A stretch of 37,054 nucleotides of DNA, from positions 1 to 37,054 of the forward strand of contig JACRML010000025.1 of the NCBI GenBank assembly GCA_016214995.1, written 5' to 3'. The position numbers were made by a program, and so were the translations under genes. Below, piece after piece: positions 4,517 to 19,621 of this stretch. The notes under the pieces are model-generated. The model ran no database searches. It saw nothing but the letters and a program-made list of their open reading frames with translations, and was not told where the DNA came from. The DNA is from Deltaproteobacteria bacterium. Lineage in GTDB: Bacteria; Desulfobacterota; GWC2-55-46; UBA9637. Position 1 is the first letter of the stretch. Each line of letters starts with the position of its first letter.

Positions 4517-4723
4517 TCATTGACAGAAGCACCAAGTCCTGCATGTGCCGTCCGGCGAGCAATACCCACCGCAGTAACACTTAATTTCTATTGTGGGCAC
4601 TCTAATTACTCTGGCTTGCAGTTGAATTTGTGAAGTGCTAATGACACGACTTGTCTTCATGTAAGAGTAACTGCTTGTTCTGTTCAGAGAGCTTTCTGCA
4701 GTAAATGAAGGCATTTTATTCAT
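4517..4723 (-). CDS. Cassette peptide 5: small Cys-rich peptide with conserved leader
   Basis: A 68-aa peptide with the family N-terminus (MNKMPSFTAESSLNRTSS) and a short Cys-rich tail of 20 residues beginning CYCGGYC and ending WCFCQ, with six Cys. The middle is Ser/Thr/Ile-rich. It starts at 4723, 7 bases after GGAGG. It is the last gene of the cassette and 17 bases from peptide 4. The shared leader with divergent core suggests a precursor of a processed peptide. It has no signal peptide and no known domain that I recognise. Confidence 0.7.
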   Translation of the reverse strand: MNKMPSFTAESSLNRTSSYSYMKTSRVISTSQIQLQARVIRVPTIEIKCYCGGYCSPDGTCRTWCFCQ

Positions 4724-4740: not shown

Positions 4741-5010
4741 TTAATCTTTTGCCTTTGAATTTGTTTTCTTGTCTTCGAAATCGCAAGATATGCTGCCATC
4801 CGGGTTGGTAGATAAGCCACCGCCGACTGCATCACACATTGCTTCAAAATACCATCTTATCCACCACGTCAAACACTTACCCCTGCAGGTTGCTCTCCTC
4901 TGCGGTAAAATACCCCCGCCTCCAGCCAGACTAGCGGAATGCCCAGCCGCCTGGTAACACTCGCTCGTCTTATAGATCGAAGCCTCTGCAGTAAATCCTG
5001 GTATCTTCAT
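4741..5010 (-). CDS. Cassette peptide 4: small Cys-containing peptide with conserved leader
   Basis: An 89-aa peptide beginning MKIPGFTAEASIYKTSECYQ. The ATG at 5010 is preferred over the GTG at 5019 because the ribosome site GGAGGTGA overlaps the GTG but sits 7 bases before the ATG. Downstream come a Gly run (AGGGGI), a Cys pair (TCRGKC), a Trp-rich segment (WWIRWYF) and a charged end rich in Asp/Lys. It is a member of the five-gene paralogous set of the cassette. Only the leader is clearly shared with the others; the core is unique, as expected for a diversifying precursor family. Confidence 0.7.
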   Translation of the reverse strand: MKIPGFTAEASIYKTSECYQAAGHSASLAGGGGILPQRRATCRGKCLTWWIRWYFEAMCDAVGGGLSTNPDGSISCDFEDKKTNSKAKD

Positions 5011-5105: not shown

Positions 5106-5462
5106 TTAATCACAAGGGCAGGAGTCCAAGCAATCTTCTTTCTGCATGGGGTTCTTTAGCTTATTGCAGCGTGCCCGACATTGCCTGCACGCCACGTCAC
5201 CGATCCATGGAGGGACACCCCAGCCGCCTGGATCGTCACCGCCTCCAATACCGGGGCAATATGTGTACTCGCAGTTTGGACCCAAACAATAGCACTGCGG
5301 ACCGAATGGCGAATTTGGGTAAAGAGGAGATGGGACATTAATCTTAATTAGTTGCGTAACAACACCACTACATGCGATAGAGCCAGACCTGTAGACCCCT
5401 CGATAGCAAGTGCGCGACTTGGCATGAAATACCGCTTCTGCAGTGAATTCTGGCATATTCAT
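5106..5462 (-). CDS. Cassette peptide 3: Cys-rich peptide with conserved leader
   Basis: A 118-aa peptide starting MNMPEFTAEAVFHAKSR, with GGAGG 8 bases before the ATG. The C-terminal two thirds hold at least 13 Cys, including CYCLGPNCEYTYC, ACRQCRARC and the end DCLDSCPCD, separated by a Gly/Pro/Trp-rich stretch (GGGDDPGGWGVPPW). The VPPW and Gly-rich linker echoes peptide 1. No signal peptide is visible. It is either a modified-peptide precursor or a small metal- or disulfide-bonded protein; the family context favours a processed precursor. Confidence 0.7.
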   Translation of the reverse strand: MNMPEFTAEAVFHAKSRTCYRGVYRSGSIACSGVVTQLIKINVPSPLYPNSPFGPQCYCLGPNCEYTYCPGIGGGDDPGGWGVPPWIGDVACRQCRARCNKLKNPMQKEDCLDSCPCD

Positions 5463-5592: not shown

Positions 5593-5926
5593 CTACCAAC
5601 CGAACTTCGGCGTTTTCGGCGTGGGTGTGTACGCCTGCATACATTGATCATACGACTGTTGTCTTACGGGGCAACGAGCGTCTATGGGAGAGAGTCTGCA
5701 AATAGCGTTCTCATAATCCATTTGCGTCATGCAGGCAAATTTACACAATTCATAGTCCACGTCTATTCCCCCATCTACAGACCACCGATGCCCCGAATAA
5801 CTCCATCGAGCCGGATAAATTGAGTTAGCCTCCCCGAGGCAGCTTCGCAGAGAGAGAGCGTATGTAGGCAGCCGTTTTGCAGAACGATGCCTCTGCAGTA
5901 AATCCTGGCATATTCATATTGTTCAT
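5593..5926 (-). pseudogene. Cassette peptide 2: frameshifted paralogue of peptide 1
   Basis: The leader MNNMNMPGFTAEASFCKTAA starts at 5926 with AAAGGAGG upstream, but the frame stops after 32 codons (TAA near 5829). The C-terminal part continues in another frame to a TAG at 5593: DVDYELCKFAC ... RQQSYDQCMQ, closely parallel to peptide 1 (DPDYELCKMGC ... SQRSYDRCMQ). The break falls at a TC run (TCTCTCTCT, minus strand, about 5851-5860). Adding one TC unit restores a single frame of about 111 codons through AYIRSLSLRSC. So a two-base slippage event, programmed frameshift or sequencing error explains it. It lies within the duplicated block (5885-5983) shared with peptide 1. Confidence 0.8.
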
Positions 5927-5983
5927 CTCATACCTCCTTTCGTTGTTTAGTTTTAACGGTCATAATATGTCGACATCTTCGTG
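5885..5983. repeat. 99-bp direct repeat, copy 1 (duplication scar)
   Basis: Matches 6354-6452 at an offset of 469 bases with 97 of 99 identities by my count. It includes the first codons of peptide 2, its ribosome site, and a useless copy of the last ten codons plus stop of the PatG-like gene. It therefore proves tandem duplication of a unit containing the PatG-like 3' end and a peptide gene. Confidence 0.85.
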
Positions 5984-5999
5984 GGTCATTTACCACACC

Positions 6000-6395
6000 C
6001 TACCGCTTCTGTTTGTCGCAATTCTGCATGCATCTGTCATACGACCGTTGACTTTCGCGCAGGCATCTTGCTGGGTTGCGACTATCTGGGCACCAATCTT
6101 TATCCGTGTGATCCTTTGTAAGTTCGCAGCCCATTTTACACAGTTCGTAATCCGGATCCACCGTTCCCCCGCCTCCGCTTCCACCTCCACCACCTCCACC
6201 ACCTCCACCCCAAGGCGGTGGAACGACCCCCGGCCCCGCAAACAAACTTCGCATGAAGTCTTCCATTTCCGCTTTCCTCGTTTGCGGTGCGACCGCATCG
6301 CTCGGAGCAGGAGCAACAGAGAGAGTGTGATATTGCCCGGCAGCTGGATACAGCGATGCCTCTGCAGTAAATCCCGGCATATTCATATTGTTCAT
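6000..6395 (-). CDS. Cassette peptide 1: Gly-run, Cys-rich peptide with conserved leader
   Basis: A 131-aa peptide. The leader is MNNMNMPGFTAEASLYPAAG (1-20). It is followed by a charged helix-like part (EMEDFMRSLFAG), a PPPW motif and a poly-Gly linker of 10 G, S, 4 G (about 63-77). The Cys-rich tail has C-x3-C spacing: ELCKMGC, DWC, ARC, DRCMQNC. Two C-x3-C pairs flanking the tail suggest a small disulfide or metal fold. The start at 6395 follows AAAGGAGG and lies 27 bases after the PatG-like stop. It is the first precursor-like gene after the processing genes and the parent or sister of frameshifted peptide 2. Confidence 0.75.
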   Translation of the reverse strand: MNNMNMPGFTAEASLYPAAGQYHTLSVAPAPSDAVAPQTRKAEMEDFMRSLFAGPGVVPPPWGGGGGGGGGGSGGGGTVDPDYELCKMGCELTKDHTDKDWCPDSRNPARCLRESQRSYDRCMQNCDKQKR

Positions 6396-6452
6396 TTCAT
6401 ACCTCCTTTCGTTGTTTAGTTTTAACGGTCATAATATGTCGACATCTTCGTG
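6354..6452. repeat. 99-bp direct repeat, copy 2 (functional location)
   Basis: Spans the 3' end of the PatG-like gene (6422-6452), the ribosome site and the first codons of peptide 1. It is repeated at 5885-5983. Confidence 0.85.
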
Positions 6453-7345
6453 ACCAGGAACGGAAACTCCTCGGTCACATCCACACGGACAAAGAACTTT
6501 TCGGTGAAATCCGTGTTCCGGTTGGTGTAGGAAAATATCGCCTCGACGATTTTGCGGGTGGCGCTCAACGGCGAGGGCCGCGTCTCAACCCCGCTCAGCG
6601 AAAAGTTCCGCGCAAATTCTTCGGCTGCCTTGGCATAGATGGCCGGATACCGTACAGACAGATAGTTCAGTGCCCGATGCTCATCCGTCGCGCCAGCGTT
6701 GTCGGTCAGTTGCATGATCCTGTCGAACACTTCCTCAGCCGCTGGGCTAAACTGCTCGGCAGCCGTCTTCTCTGGTTTGGGGATGGCTTTGATGAGCGCA
6801 TTGCGGTCGAAGGAATAAATCTGGTCGAACGCAACAATCGGAACCATGAGCCCGTTGCATAGCTCTGGTGGAGCGATGGGGCCTCTTAACCCAACCACCA
6901 CATCGATGTCATTGGGGCTAGGCGCTGAGCGAATGGCTTCCACTAAACGCTCGAAGTCGACTGGGTCGCGCGGTTGCAGGATATACGTTTCCAGCCCCTG
7001 AATGCTCAGAACCAAGCACATCTGGCGTACTAGATAACGGTTCTCGCGTTTTGACAAGACGGCATGAAATACCTGTTGATCAGTCTTTCCAGCGGTTTCA
7101 GACCGACCCGCAACCTGGGCAAACTCCTTCTCCACCGATAAGCGCGGAAAACGCGCCTCAATTCGGCCTAAGGCATAGACGTAGGACATGGGCATAGAAG
7201 CCGTCCCGCCTGCGCAAGTCGGGCAGGATGCCTCCTCAGCCGGCGGGGACATGGCAACATCCTCTTGAGATGGCGTAATCGCGGTGACATCATGGTCAGA
7301 CGCAGCTTGTTTAGCTAATTGTTGTTTCGCTTCGTTTTGTTCCAT
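6422..7345 (-). CDS. Stand-alone PatG C-terminal-like protein (cyanobactin PatA/PatG family)
   Basis: A 307-aa cytoplasmic protein with no protease domain. Residues 1-50 are a flexible, Pro/Ala/Glu-rich tail with CPTC (41-44). From about 55 to the end it follows the conserved C-terminal region of PatA/PatG-type cyanobactin maturation proteases: SYVYALGRIEARFP, GLETYILQPRDP, GLRGPIAPPELCNGL, VAFDQIYSFD, DNAGATDEHRALNYL, then the ending EEFPFLVTKM near STYYDR. In PatG this region is fused to the protease; here it is a separate gene, with the subtilase two genes upstream. Its biochemical role is unknown even in PatG. Ribosome site AGGAGG precedes the ATG at 7345. Base composition is visibly more GC-rich than the neighbouring housekeeping genes, suggesting transfer. 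Family recognition rests on memory of the conserved motifs. Confidence 0.8.
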   Translation of the reverse strand: MEQNEAKQQLAKQAASDHDVTAITPSQEDVAMSPPAEEASCPTCAGGTASMPMSYVYALGRIEARFPRLSVEKEFAQVAGRSETAGKTDQQVFHAVLSKRENRYLVRQMCLVLSIQGLETYILQPRDPVDFERLVEAIRSAPSPNDIDVVVGLRGPIAPPELCNGLMVPIVAFDQIYSFDRNALIKAIPKPEKTAAEQFSPAAEEVFDRIMQLTDNAGATDEHRALNYLSVRYPAIYAKAAEEFARNFSLSGVETRPSPLSATRKIVEAIFSYTNRNTDFTEKFFVRVDVTEEFPFLVTKMSTYYDR

Positions 7346-7377: not shown

Positions 7378-7596
7378 TTATTTTGGGTGCCTACCCGTGA
7401 ACACGAGCCAACGGTTAAGCATGGCGGCGCGTTGTTCGCACCCACTACAAGGTCTGATTCCAAAAGCTGATGTGACTCGTTTGACGACAGTACCAAGACC
7501 CACATCTTCATCAAGGATGAATCCTGGAAGGCGCACTCGGTGTGGCAGAGAGTCCTGACCCCCTGTCTCAACGTCTTTGGCCTCCTCTTCTTTCAT
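7378..7596 (-). CDS. 72-aa CxxC protein of the PatA/PatG-like cassette
   Basis: A short conserved-looking protein: RLPGFILDEDVGLG (22-35), VVKRVTSAFGIRPCSGC (with a CxxC) and EQRAAMLNRWLVFTG at the end. The N-terminus is acidic and variable. I recall similar GF-x-x-DEDVGLG small proteins in other genomes as hypothetical, without a known function. The ribosome site GGAGG lies inside the last codons of the protease gene (AGG AGG TAA), so the genes are coupled; the PatG-like gene follows after 32 bases. It could be a precursor, a metal-binding chaperone or a peptide-recognition partner; nothing in the sequence decides. Confidence 0.65.
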   Translation of the reverse strand: MKEEEAKDVETGGQDSLPHRVRLPGFILDEDVGLGTVVKRVTSAFGIRPCSGCEQRAAMLNRWLVFTGRHPK

Positions 7597-7600
7597 AGAC

Positions 7601-8476
7601 TTACCTCCTTATCTGAGCTGTGCTCATGAATTGATAGGCCGCCCAAGCGTTCAACAACGGCGGCACCACCGTCGTTCGTCTGGGCGCATACGCTTGTGTG
7701 ACGGCAAATTTCACTTGCGCCGCAGTCGCTGCTGGAAATGCTGACCACAACAACGCAATGGCTCCGGTCACAAGAGGGGTTGCCACACTGGTTCCTCCCA
7801 TCGTGAGGGGTTTGCCCACGGCGCCGAGGCTGGTAATGTCCTGACCCGGGGCACTCAAACCTCGCCTCCCAATAGAGCTTCCCAGATTCGACTCGTTCAT
7901 CGGTCTTCCTCGCAGGTCACAAGCAACCACTGGAATGACCCACGAGTGCCGCGTGATGGCAGTACTACCGAGCGTTCCTTGATTGCCTGCTGCTGCGACA
8001 ATAATGACTCCGCGCTTAGTGGCATGATCCAGCACTTGCTCTAACTCACGTTCGCCTTTTGACGAGGGTTGTGCCAGAGCAAGGCTCAAATTGATGCAGC
8101 GCGCACCAGCCTCGATACACTCGATAATCGCCGCTGCCAATTCTTGGGGGGTCGCACTCGGTATCTGCGTATTCTCTACGGTTGTCTCAGTAAAGACAGG
8201 ACGTATCAGCAAAGTGCAATCTGGGCAGATAGCTGGAGCGGAAGAATTCCGCTTTGTGCTTAAAATCCCGGCTATGAATGTTCCATGCAAACAAGCCGTA
8301 CTGTTGGCCTGAGTACAGGCACCGCTCCCGTTTCCAGGGATCTCACGGATATGTTGGCTGGCAAGCTCTGGATGGTTCATAGCCACAGGTCCATCAATGA
8401 GCCCGATTATCACGTCAGGCCTACCGCTAATGCGTTTTATCAACGGCGTGAGTCCAATCAAGTCTAATGGTGTCAT
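7601..8476 (-). CDS. PatA-like cytoplasmic subtilisin-family (S8) protease
   Basis: A 291-aa serine protease made of the S8 domain only, with no signal peptide or propeptide, so it acts in the cytoplasm. The catalytic triad is visible: Asp28 in GLIDGPV, His64 in HGTFIAG, Ser230 in GGTSVATP, with oxyanion Asn165 in AAAGNQG. The GxxDGPV and HPELA pattern, and CPDCTLLIRPVF, match the PatA/PatG protease branch that cleaves cyanobactin leader peptides. It is the first gene of the cassette and the natural candidate for cutting the five M-P-x-F-T-A-E peptides. The ribosome site AAGGAA lies in one arm of a 16-base palindrome (8482-8497), which may limit translation. Its length equals PatA's protease domain without the C-terminal region, which here is encoded separately. 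Confidence 0.88.
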   Translation of the reverse strand: MTPLDLIGLTPLIKRISGRPDVIIGLIDGPVAMNHPELASQHIREIPGNGSGACTQANSTACLHGTFIAGILSTKRNSSAPAICPDCTLLIRPVFTETTVENTQIPSATPQELAAAIIECIEAGARCINLSLALAQPSSKGERELEQVLDHATKRGVIIVAAAGNQGTLGSTAITRHSWVIPVVACDLRGRPMNESNLGSSIGRRGLSAPGQDITSLGAVGKPLTMGGTSVATPLVTGAIALLWSAFPAATAAQVKFAVTQAYAPRRTTVVPPLLNAWAAYQFMSTAQIRR

Positions 8477-13845: not shown

Positions 13846-15252
13846 ATGTTCACATCCATAAAATTCAGGCTAATTGTATGGTTTCTTTCAGCCTTCTCCA
13901 TAGTTTTGGCAGGGCTTGGCTTATTTTTATATTATGAACTGGAAAAGATTGCAATTGGTTCTGTTGACCGCCATCTCCATTCTGAAGTCCAGTTTCTGGC
14001 CAGTTTTCTAAGAGAGGAGGAACAACACGGACACATCGGGGGTGAACTGATTGAGTTATCCAGCGCTGCCACTGGTGAATATGCCTTGCCGCTATCCGGC
14101 CATTATTATCAGGTTCTTTCACAGGACGGCAAGATTATTGCCCGCTCCCCTTCGCTTCCTGTTACAGGCGCGACGTTGCCCTTTGAGGGCGAAACATTAG
14201 AACCATCCTATAAAATCATTACAGGGCCTGAAAATGAACCTCTCCGCATGCTAACCCAAACTTTTAAACTCTCCACCGGCACAATTACGATTCAGGCAGC
14301 AGACACTTTAAAAGAGGCATACCATGTGCTCGGCTCTTTCAGCAATATCTTATTGATTATTTTTCCAATTGTCTTTGCCTTATCGGGAATAGGCATCTTT
14401 ATTATAACGAACAGGGCGCTCAAGGCATTAAATATCTTCTCCGGGAACATCGGGCAGATTACTGAAAAAAATCTGAACAAGCGGATTGAATTGCGGGGCA
14501 TAGAAACAGAACTTAAACCTCTGGCAGATAGTTTCAATATCATGATGGGGCGCATAGAAGACGCATTCACCAAGCAGGGGCAGTTCCTTTCGGATGCATC
14601 GCATGAACTCAGAACACCTACATCCATTATAAAGAGTTATTGTGATGTAACACTAAAAAAGACAAGAAGTGAGGTTGAATATAAAGAGGCATTAACTGTG
14701 ATAAAAGATACCTCTGAAAAAATGACATCGCTTATACAAAAAATACTTGATGTTGCAAGACTTGAGGCTAAAGATGTCTTAATAAAAAGAGAGGTTGTGG
14801 ATATTGGCTCTATCTTAAGTAATGTCTACAAACTGATGCTTCCAATCGCAGAAGAAAATGATATAGAGATTTTATTGGAAGACGGCAAAAAGGTTGATGC
14901 TTCTGGCGATAAGGACAGACTGGCAGAACTCTTTATAAATCTTGTTGATAATGCGATAAAGTATAATAGAAAAGGCGGCAGGGTTGTAATTTCAAGCGAT
15001 ACAAACAATGCTTGTGCTGTTATAACTATTTCTGACACAGGCATTGGTATTCCCGAGAAAGATATGGACAAAATATTTGACAGATTTTATAGGGTTGATA
15101 AATCCAGGGGTGAGGTTGCCGGGACAGGCCTTGGATTAAGTATTGCAAAATCAATTGTTGAAGCACATAGAGGCACAATAGAAGTGAAAAAGGGTTTAGG
15201 GGCAGGAACTGAATTTAAAGTCATTCTTCCCGTATTCAGCCTGAAAAATTAA
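13846..15252 (+). CDS. Sensor histidine kinase, partner of the OmpR-type regulator
   Basis: A 468-aa membrane kinase. Membrane helix 1 (about 9-29) is followed by a periplasmic sensor loop of some 130 residues, helix 2 (about 163-186), a HAMP segment, the HisKA box with His253 in SDASHELRTP, and a HATPase domain with N box (LVDNAIKYN), G1 (DTGIGIP), F box (IFDRFYRVD) and G2 (GTGLGLSIAK). The periplasmic region has no cofactor motif I can name. Its end overlaps the convergent tldE-like gene by 17 bases, so transcription from the two sides collides there. Confidence 0.93.
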   Translation: MFTSIKFRLIVWFLSAFSIVLAGLGLFLYYELEKIAIGSVDRHLHSEVQFLASFLREEEQHGHIGGELIELSSAATGEYALPLSGHYYQVLSQDGKIIARSPSLPVTGATLPFEGETLEPSYKIITGPENEPLRMLTQTFKLSTGTITIQAADTLKEAYHVLGSFSNILLIIFPIVFALSGIGIFIITNRALKALNIFSGNIGQITEKNLNKRIELRGIETELKPLADSFNIMMGRIEDAFTKQGQFLSDASHELRTPTSIIKSYCDVTLKKTRSEVEYKEALTVIKDTSEKMTSLIQKILDVARLEAKDVLIKREVVDIGSILSNVYKLMLPIAEENDIEILLEDGKKVDASGDKDRLAELFINLVDNAIKYNRKGGRVVISSDTNNACAVITISDTGIGIPEKDMDKIFDRFYRVDKSRGEVAGTGLGLSIAKSIVEAHRGTIEVKKGLGAGTEFKVILPVFSLKN

Positions 15253-16600
15253 AATCCTTTATCAATAATGCCGGCACAATACATGCCCCGGCATCGCTCC
15301 ATGATATTGGAAATGCCTGTCTTTCACTCGATATCGCCTCAACCCTTGAAAATGCCTCTATTATTGATTCTGTAAACCTCATATCCTCAACAGGGCACTT
15401 AATCCTTCCATCTTCAATATAAAAGGTTCCATCCCTTGTCATGCCTGTCATTGATGCTGTTTTTGTATCCAGAAGGCCGTTTACATAATGAAATCTTGTA
15501 ACAAGTATGCCTCGCTCAACCATAGATACCATCTCATCAATTGTATGCCCTCCCGCTTTTATAAATACATTTGACGGAAAAGGCCCTTCAACATCTTCCG
15601 GAATAAGAGCATGCCCTGTGGTTTTTCTTCTGTATTTTTTTGCAAGAAGTGTATCAAAGGCAATACCTTTTGCTATGCCGCTTTGTACAATATCCAATCT
15701 TTTTTTAGCCGCACCCTCAAAATCAAATGGCACAGGGAAACCGGATAAATCAGTGCCGTCATCGTATATGGTCATTTTCTTGCTCATAATCTTTTTCCCG
15801 ATACTTCCTGCCATAAAACTTGTGCCATCAATAAACGACTCGGCGCCAAAACCTATATAAATAAGCCATTCAAGGATTTCATTTACCGCAGCAGGCTCAA
15901 GAATAATCGTATATCTTCCTGGCTTTAATTTTTTAGGTTTATTTTTGATAATAGTCTTTTCAAGGGCTATGGATAGGAGTCTTTTTGTATTTATATTCTT
16001 TATATTCCTATCAAACTGGCTTGCAAAACCGGATGCAGAAGCAGATGATGTGATGAGGCTTATATTTGCAGATGTAAATGGCTGATATGCTTCGATGCCG
16101 TTTGAATTTACTATACCTATCTCAGTTTCTAAAGTTGAAAAAGCGCCGCCTGCCTTAAGTTCAGAGTTCGGAGTTCGGAGTTCGGAGTTTGCCTTTTTAA
16201 AAATATTATCCAGAGTTTTTATTCTGTCAGATATTGTAAGGTTTGCAGTTTCAGGAAAGTGGGTTTTAATCTCTGGATATTCAGAGGGCTCTGGCAGACT
16301 GTGAAAGAATTTTAAAGGTTTTATCTGCTTTGCAATGGCAATTGCCTTTTTCAAACATCGCCTCAGGTCATCTATGTGCAGAGAATTTGTAGATGTAATG
16401 CCGATTTTCTTATCCAATAAAACCCTGAAATATATTTGTCTGTCCGATTCCTTTATATTCTGTGTCACTGCCGAATTTGCGAATCTTGTCGCAGACCTGT
16501 GGCTGCCGACATAAAGCGCCTCAGCCTGTCCGGCGCCATGTTCCCTTGCCTCTCGCATCAGACTCTTGAGTAATTCTATTATTTTGTCTCTACCTAACAT
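15236..16600 (-). CDS. TldE/PmbA-type subunit of the TldD/TldE metalloprotease
   Basis: A 454-aa protein of the TldD/PmbA family. In the known complex TldE is the partner lacking the catalytic metal site, while TldD holds HExxxH; together they degrade unfolded peptides and mature some RiPPs such as microcin B17. Family blocks visible are ALYVGSHRSATRFANSAV near the N-terminus, EPAAVNEILEWL, GKKIMSKKMTIYDDG, GHALIPEDVEGPFPSN and the C-terminal GGTFYIEDG-like segment. No HExxxH occurs, as expected. Residues about 136-149 (ANSELRTPNSELK) are encoded by AGTTCGG phrase repeats (16159-16191), an in-frame expansion. It is separated from tldD by three unrelated genes. Confidence 0.88.
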   Translation of the reverse strand: MLGRDKIIELLKSLMREAREHGAGQAEALYVGSHRSATRFANSAVTQNIKESDRQIYFRVLLDKKIGITSTNSLHIDDLRRCLKKAIAIAKQIKPLKFFHSLPEPSEYPEIKTHFPETANLTISDRIKTLDNIFKKANSELRTPNSELKAGGAFSTLETEIGIVNSNGIEAYQPFTSANISLITSSASASGFASQFDRNIKNINTKRLLSIALEKTIIKNKPKKLKPGRYTIILEPAAVNEILEWLIYIGFGAESFIDGTSFMAGSIGKKIMSKKMTIYDDGTDLSGFPVPFDFEGAAKKRLDIVQSGIAKGIAFDTLLAKKYRRKTTGHALIPEDVEGPFPSNVFIKAGGHTIDEMVSMVERGILVTRFHYVNGLLDTKTASMTGMTRDGTFYIEDGRIKCPVEDMRFTESIIEAFSRVEAISSERQAFPISWSDAGACIVPALLIKDFNFSG

Positions 16601-18124: not shown

Positions 18125-19621
18125 CTAACATTTAACTGCTCCAATTTCCACATTGCTGAACCTTGCAGGCGCTGCCCCATGCCCCACTGATATGCTCTGC
18201 ACAGGATCGCCCTTTCCGCAACTATTTAATCCATACATCTGCCATTCTTCTTTGCCGCATATTGCATTGCACGATTTCCAAAACTGCGGTGTTATGCCTG
18301 AATAAACAAGATTTTTCAGCGGTCTTGCGATTCTGCCTTTTTTTATCTCCCATCCAATCTCCATGCCGAGCTGGAAATTAAGCCTCAATGTATCAATGCT
18401 CCAACTTTTATTTGTCTGAAGGAAGATACCGTCTTTTGTATCTGAGATTAAATCATTCAAAACACCTTGTTGCGGTTCAATATTTATATTGCTCATCCTT
18501 ATAATTGGAATATTATCCCAGCCGTTTGCCCTCACGCTGCCATTAGATTTTTTGCCCAAAGATTTTGCTGTTTCCCTTGATGTGAGAAAATCTACAAACC
18601 TGCCGTTTTTTATAATATCAACCCTTCTTGCCTTTGTCCCTTCGTCATCATAAAGGTAACTTCCTGCGCCACCTTCAATCGTCGGGTCAGCATAAATATT
18701 TACGATTTTAGAGCATATCTGTTTCCCTAATTTATCCGGCGTAAGAAATGTTCCGCCTGCAAGGCTTATCTCCATTCCCATTGCCCTGTCAAGTTCAACT
18801 GCATGTCCTATGGATTCATGAATCTGTAAGGCAACCTGCGAGCCGCCGAGAATGACAGTCTTTTCTCCTGATGGACACTCATCTGCCTTTAAAAGCATAA
18901 GAGCCTCTTCGATTATACGCGGTGCATTCTGTAATATATCCATTTCAATAATCCGCTCATAACCGCCCTGCCTGAAAATGCCGTTATGCGAATCAGGGAA
19001 TGACCTTATTTGAACATCATCACCATCAATTGCAATGGCTTTTATACCTGCGCCGCTTGTAAATATCTCCTGCTCAATAAAACTTCCTTCTGTATTCAAA
19101 AAGATTTTATGCGCCTTCTGAAAATCCATAAAACCTTCAATGGTGTGAATCTTTTTATATTGTCTGGAATTCTTATACAGTGATGTTGCCTTTAAAGTTG
19201 GAAAAAGCCTTTCTTCAATAGGTATTGTAAAAGGATCAATCTGACACGGGGCTTTGTATTTAATTTTAACAGCAGGATTTTTATCTATTATCCCCTTGAC
19301 CCCTTGACCCCTTGACCCCTGTATTCTGGCTATCGCCTTTGCCTGAGATAACGCAGCATCCACCATCTTTTTTGTCTCTGTCTCAGTCAAAAGAGAACTC
19401 GCTGCAAATCCCCATGCACCTTTATATAAAACCCTTATGCCAAAGCCTGTATCAAAATTGTCCCAGAGTTTGTCAATCTCCCCATCCCTTGCCATCACTC
19501 CTTCTGAAATAGACTCCTCAAGACGAATGTCCGCATATTCAACGCCTCTTTTTTTGAGATAAGCGATGGTGTGTTGAAGCACGGAGATAAAATTATGTTT
19601 TGGCAATGGGGAGAGGGTCAT
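18125..19621 (-). CDS. tldD: TldD metalloprotease subunit
   Basis: A 498-aa catalytic partner of TldE. The zinc motif HExxxH is present as HESIGH (about 268-273) in LQIHESIGHAVELDRAMG. Other family blocks are YADIRLEES, DNFDTGFGIRVLYKGAWGFA-type N-terminal segment, DPTIEGGAGSYLYDDEG and the C-terminal GKGDPVQSISVGHGAP-like end. In E. coli the TldD/TldE pair trims unfolded peptides and RiPP precursors. Residues near 102-112 (RIQGSRGQGVKG) come from TTGACCCC phrase repeats (19297-19322). The ATG overlaps the stop of the upstream exported protein gene (TAATG), so they are cotranscribed. Confidence 0.93.
   Translation of the reverse strand: MTLSPLPKHNFISVLQHTIAYLKKRGVEYADIRLEESISEGVMARDGEIDKLWDNFDTGFGIRVLYKGAWGFAASSLLTETETKKMVDAALSQAKAIARIQGSRGQGVKGIIDKNPAVKIKYKAPCQIDPFTIPIEERLFPTLKATSLYKNSRQYKKIHTIEGFMDFQKAHKIFLNTEGSFIEQEIFTSGAGIKAIAIDGDDVQIRSFPDSHNGIFRQGGYERIIEMDILQNAPRIIEEALMLLKADECPSGEKTVILGGSQVALQIHESIGHAVELDRAMGMEISLAGGTFLTPDKLGKQICSKIVNIYADPTIEGGAGSYLYDDEGTKARRVDIIKNGRFVDFLTSRETAKSLGKKSNGSVRANGWDNIPIIRMSNINIEPQQGVLNDLISDTKDGIFLQTNKSWSIDTLRLNFQLGMEIGWEIKKGRIARPLKNLVYSGITPQFWKSCNAICGKEEWQMYGLNSCGKGDPVQSISVGHGAAPARFSNVEIGAVKC

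Follow-up and report, generated by a model that had tools for sequence, protein, structure and literature searches.

The second precursor gene of a small-peptide array located on the minus strand of the window (the whole stretch of 37,054 nucleotides that was analysed) is probably a recently inactivated, redundant paralog that lost its reading frame through a non-triplet indel in the length-variable linker of its leader. A preliminary description of this DNA had already proposed that leader and core are out of frame with each other in a genuine paralog of peptide 1, and this is borne out by the homology of the core (E 6.4e-7). Decay and sequencing error, which had been offered there among the causes, are both possible, whereas the location of the break at a dinucleotide run and its interpretation as phase variation could not be upheld.

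The array is part of a compact cluster that extends on the minus strand from 8476 to 4517 and comprises an S8 protease, a 72-aa protein, a PatG-like protein and five leader-bearing small genes with starts at 6395, 5926, 5462, 5010 and 4723. The protease (7601–8476) is intact, and among solved structures it comes nearest to the N-terminal (PatA-type) proteases of cyanobactin pathways (4h6w, E 6.6e-30); its match to TIGR03895 lies below the curated cut-off (105 vs 421 bits). Downstream follow the conserved small protein of 72 aa (RLPGFILDEDVGLG...GIRPCSGC, 7378–7596) and an intact stand-alone PatG_D/PatG_C protein of 307 aa (6422–7345; PF18047 E 1.4e-32, PF18065 E 1.1e-35). The small protein, which sits between the protease and the PatG-like gene, has homologs in the loci L023, L025–L029, L049, L055, L056, L058, L059 and L064–L066. 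Its conserved start (RLPGFIxDEEIGLGD) resembles the first box of the precursor leaders (MPGFTAEASLG), as if the leader signal were mimicked or shared. Besides peptide 2 the array contains four intact precursors, namely peptide 1 with 131 aa (6000–6395), which is the closest paralog of peptide 2, peptide 3 (5106–5462), peptide 4 (4741–5010, with ILPQ as box 2) and peptide 5 (4517–4723). None of the precursor peptides carries a family label in NCBIfam or Pfam. Genes of the PmbA/TldE and TldD types are located at window positions 15236–16600 and 18125–19621, about 7–10 kb from the array; elsewhere proteases of the TldD/PmbA type process some modified peptides.

Peptide 2 is divided into two halves that are read in two frames. 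Its leader ORF in frame 0 (MNNMNMPGFTAEASFCKTAAYIRSLSAKLPRGG, 5825–5926, minus strand) starts with the ATG at 5926 and comprises 33 codons, and not 32 as originally counted, before the stop at 5827–5825; its box 1 (PGFTAEASFCKTAAYIR) is intact. The Cys-containing core (DVDYELCKFAC...SYDQCMQ, 5593–5763, minus strand) is read in a shifted frame that ends at 5593. In a whole-genome search it showed 46% identity to peptide 1 over 48 residues (E 6.4e-7), and the reverse search from peptide 1 returned the peptide 2 core with E 2.1e-6. Box 2 of the leader (NSIYPAR, 5806–5826, minus strand) shares the frame of the core. Since box 1 is found in one frame and box 2 together with the core in another, the break has to lie inside the leader, and the positions of the boxes and of the stop bind it to the interval 5827–5857 on the minus strand, i.e. 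to about 31 nt that follow the last codon of box 1 (R23, 5860–5858) and precede the frame-0 stop. Roughly one third of this interval is covered by the run CTCTCTCTCT (5849–5858, minus strand; 10 nt, five CT units), the longest dinucleotide run within the window. The two boxes of peptide 2 are 88 nt apart, which is within the range of the family and is not a whole number of codons. That NSIYPAR is read in the same frame as the core and stands at family spacing indicates that both halves derive from one former precursor. The original frame arithmetic, according to which one extra TC restores the frame, is consistent with the sequence.

The family to which this leader belongs was delineated by scanning 29 loci (the window, L023–L030 and L047–L066), 25 of which contain leader ORFs, 62 in total. 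These totals are lower bounds because the motif, start-codon and Shine–Dalgarno filters missed at least three leaders that were otherwise observed (L026 1288, L028 7865 and L028 6471). A typical leader consists of box 1, FTAEAS(LY) (P-x-F-T-A-E-A-S), followed about 30 codons on by a [VI]xPQ-like box 2 (e.g., VIPQ). With three named broken precursors set aside, box 2 was recognised in 44 of 59 leader ORFs in the scanned range of 26–34 codons from box 1, and in all 44 members it is in frame with box 1. The spacing amounts to 28–32 codons in 42 of these 44 (mode 30, 17 ORFs), and the length of the linker between the boxes varies from 28 to 34 codons. Judged from the sequences, this two-box leader with its nearly fixed spacing is a probable recognition signal. 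A scoring matrix for box 2, built from 42 instances (34 distinct) without the rows of the window, was applied to all three frames of peptide 2 and revealed NSIYPAR as the clear best candidate (6.9 vs −0.6 for the next), a score reached in the expected interval by 233 of 20000 shuffles. It lies under the training range (10.2–17.8), and the intact peptide 1 scores lower still (3.3).

The same leader is common to precursors beside stand-alone PatG-DUF genes in widely different bacteria, namely ammonia oxidisers, anammox planctomycetes and a Pyrinomonadaceae assembly, and on rhizobial plasmids. It was exposed by asking what broke in peptide 2, and in this respect the frameshift is useful as a marker. 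A limited literature search yielded no published description of leader or array; FTAEAS gave no match and GFTAE an unrelated match only. One precursor from Brocadiia (L028 8212–8547) contains spaced Cys pairs in its core, similar to peptides 1 and 2, and in a comparison within a small set it matched peptide 1 (window 6000–6395) with E 3e-6, a Gly-rich stretch being present. The sequences suggest that this precursor and peptides 1 and 2 share a core fold.

How the inactivation of peptide 2 proceeded can be outlined as follows. In the intact system the S8 protease (PatA type) would act together with the DUF protein (PatG type) in recognising the leaders and releasing the cores. Since the linker between the boxes varies in length among the members, indels can be expected to be frequent there, and peptide 2 would have been broken by one whose length is not divisible by three. 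Ribosomes would stop after 33 codons and produce a leader stub only, without core. The loss of this copy would be tolerated because four other intact precursors remain and would keep the system running. As expected of a pseudogene, an intact homologous sister is found nearby (peptide 1) and the frame is interrupted between conserved parts, with box 1 on one side and box 2 and the core on the other. In the core of peptide 2 no further stop or frame break was seen. Its frame is still open for 84 codons past the CT run, and 83 of 5000 dinucleotide shuffles do likewise; the break thus looks recent. From the codons comes a weak hint that the core may once have been translated: mismatches are distributed over the three codon positions as 23/23/26, and in the 52 codons compared dN/dS is 0.35, with the synonymous sites almost saturated. 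Against decay it has to be said that an undamaged core is also predicted by an assembly error or by a reversible switch.

The main rival explanation is a sequencing or assembly error, with peptide 2 being encoded in one frame in the real genome, and this is unlikely. The source assembly comprises 99 contigs and is 82.5% complete, apart from the break no damage is seen in the core or in either leader box, and two related assemblies contain broken copies as well, one of them (G465) together with a split PatG gene. On the other hand, nine of the ten larger genes in the window match NCBIfam unbroken, and for the tenth a match to the TldD/PmbA domains of Pfam was obtained. This speaks against indel noise in general and lowers, without removing, the chance of such an error; moreover, a dinucleotide run of 10 nt is not long. 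Phase variation, in which slippage at the CT run would turn peptide 2 reversibly on and off within the population, is very improbable. Five CT units are indeed present inside both the break interval and the coding region, a shorter CT run occupies the matching place in peptide 1, and the downstream frame is preserved. Nevertheless, in a gapless alignment from the ATG the distance between ATG and run end is equal in peptide 2 and in the intact peptide 1, so that the run itself shows no sign of a change in length, although this comparison assumes homologous runs, and low-complexity sequence cannot prove homology. With five units the tract also falls short of the cut-off of six or more units for phase-variable dinucleotide tracts used in a published catalogue (PMC6321876). 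In the genome of 1.98 Mb there are 12 separate CT tracts with at least five units, including one with ten units elsewhere. Among 61 of the 62 box 1-to-box 2 linkers (L055 5780, which precedes a PatG gene and is without box 2, was omitted) dinucleotide runs longer than 7 nt occur in peptides 1 (8 nt) and 2 only, and a 10-nt run is present in 5.5% of shuffled sets of 61 linkers. With simple sequence repeat (SSR) contingency loci peptide 2 shares a short repeat that lies within a coding region and is followed by a part out of frame; it differs by a tract under the published cut-off, and its relatives show nothing of such a strategy. The ten-unit CT tract mentioned above (G000:C96:18272–18291), the longest found in the genome, is a better variable-repeat candidate than the run in peptide 2.

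Extremely improbable is a ribosomal frame shift at the run or a split precursor whose core would have its own translation start and be served by the leader in trans. By reasoning, a two-base backward slip on a run of period 2 would re-pair exactly; in Ca. Brocadia sp. WS118 the overlap of the ATG of a core ORF with the stop of its leader (ATGA) could couple translation, and a GTG at 5760 could start the core of peptide 2. However, a stable stem downstream of the run was not found (z +0.76 and +1.30 vs shuffles), a coupling start was not detected in the window copy, and box 2, wherever it is recognised (44 members), keeps to the same frame as box 1. A programmed frameshift signal was rejected on account of this RNA folding result. 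The broader proposition is that the peptide 2 precursor can be switched or recoded, so that in some of the cells or ribosomes box 1 becomes connected with box 2 and the core, either by a reversible CT-tract switch or by a two-base backward slip; this is likewise quite unlikely. If it were true, the product mix of the array would be varied at low cost and the split leader and core of strain WS118 would be a second instance.

Inactivation by a linker indel is in line with the broken copies in other loci. In the second precursor of WS118 (L023 5257) the leader and a core homologous to that of the neighbour lie in different frames, and dN/dS is 0.18 over 195 codons. The long Cys-rich core ORF of this precursor (L023 5257–6041) starts at the ATG that overlaps the leader stop. 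The Brocadiia assembly G465 (L028) contains one leader with an in-frame stop nine residues into box 1 and a core-like reading beyond it, and a further leader without ATG start. At L028 8885–9909 and 6295–6821 there are its PatG-like gene, split into two overlapping ORFs, and two damaged precursors, so this cluster is either decayed or poorly assembled. In L026 a short leader (2914) runs into a PatG fragment. All these broken copies may be due to decay or to assembly errors. Together with the variable linker length they still make the loss of copies the plainest reading, and from the cases in anammox relatives (WS118 and G465) such loss seems to be normal in these arrays.

Also the way in which the peptide 2 copy arose has left traces. 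A direct repeat of 99 bp is present at 5885–5983 and at 6354–6452 (both minus strand); the two copies are 98% identical and reach from the end of the PatG-like gene across the intergenic ribosome-binding site into the start of the leader. Upstream of peptide 2 it contains a non-functional remnant of the 3′ end of the PatG-like gene (TKMSTYYDR*, 5953–5982, minus strand). Past the 99-bp tract the identity between peptides 2 and 1 drops sharply, from 98% in the upstream and leader part to 46% in the core. PatG tails precede also the non-first precursors L023 5257, L028 7319 and, in a longer form, L026 2653; hence copying of a unit of PatG tail and leader seems to be a recurring step in such arrays, as far as can be read from these sequences. 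New precursor copies would arise by duplication or conversion of this unit, and copying the tail of the PatG-like gene together with the leader would represent a possible route of array growth. Because leader and core differ so much in their identity to peptide 1, tandem duplication and conversion are both conceivable for peptide 2. The end of the 99-bp tract was considered as position of the frame break and rejected, since the codons that follow (FCKTAAYIR) by eye still resemble box 1.

The peptide 2 core was detected in one of 196 genomes, namely its own, and no close relative carrying peptide 2 in intact form was found among them. Among the relatives of the window the leader pattern occurs in 1 of 395, again its own, and the PatG-like gene in 1 of 196, the window itself, being absent from the other 195. 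In viral contigs no confirmed relative of peptide 1 was found. A scan of the genome collection with the leader DNA pattern returned four records (Ca. Brocadia sp. WS118, Nitrosospira sp. Nsp14, Nitrosovibrio sp. Nv6 and a Pyrinomonadaceae MAG), and all four genomes contain a PatG_D gene. PatG-like genes are present in 5 of 75 genomes from the class of WS118, in 16 of 125 from the family of Nsp14 and in 3 of 119 from the order of the Pyrinomonadaceae MAG. Plasmids gave matches to the PatG-like protein in 5 of 72,556 records, the best ones to the protein encoded at 6422–7345 being from Mesorhizobium (78.7% identity over 90%) and from a conjugative Sinorhizobium plasmid (70.1% over 99%). This high identity to plasmid proteins, in combination with the absence from relatives, suggests that the cluster was probably acquired horizontally and that the PatG-like protein is probably widely transferred.

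With the patellamide-type cyanobactin systems the array shares an S8 protease closest to the solved N-terminal proteases, PatG_D and PatG_C domains over the cut-off (PF18047, PF18065) and short precursors with conserved leader and variable cores. Cyanobactin cores are short repeated cassettes, and a YcaO heterocyclase is found in many, not all, cyanobactin pathways. In contrast with PatG, the DUF in the window is a separate protein of 307 aa in which only PatG_D and PatG_C exceed the cut-off, without a fused protease/macrocyclase; the cores in the window are Cys-rich and long, and YcaO (PF02624) was not found in the single genome searched, its own, which is 82.5% complete. As there is neither a fused macrocyclase nor, in this incomplete genome, YcaO, the array is not filed as a cyanobactin cluster, although on sequence grounds it resembles these systems in protease and DUF. 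This combination of a PatA-like protease and a stand-alone PatG DUF, with YcaO not found, makes the surrounding array more interesting than the frameshift itself.

As a mere frameshift peptide 2 is unremarkable: a redundant array has probably lost one of its copies by decay. It corresponds to pseudogenised paralogs of other multi-precursor arrays in that a single copy is broken while enzymes and sister precursors are intact, and comparable broken copies exist in two Brocadiia assemblies. The sole difference is the sharp mosaic of peptide 2, in which an almost identical upstream and leader part (98%) is joined to a core with 46% identity.
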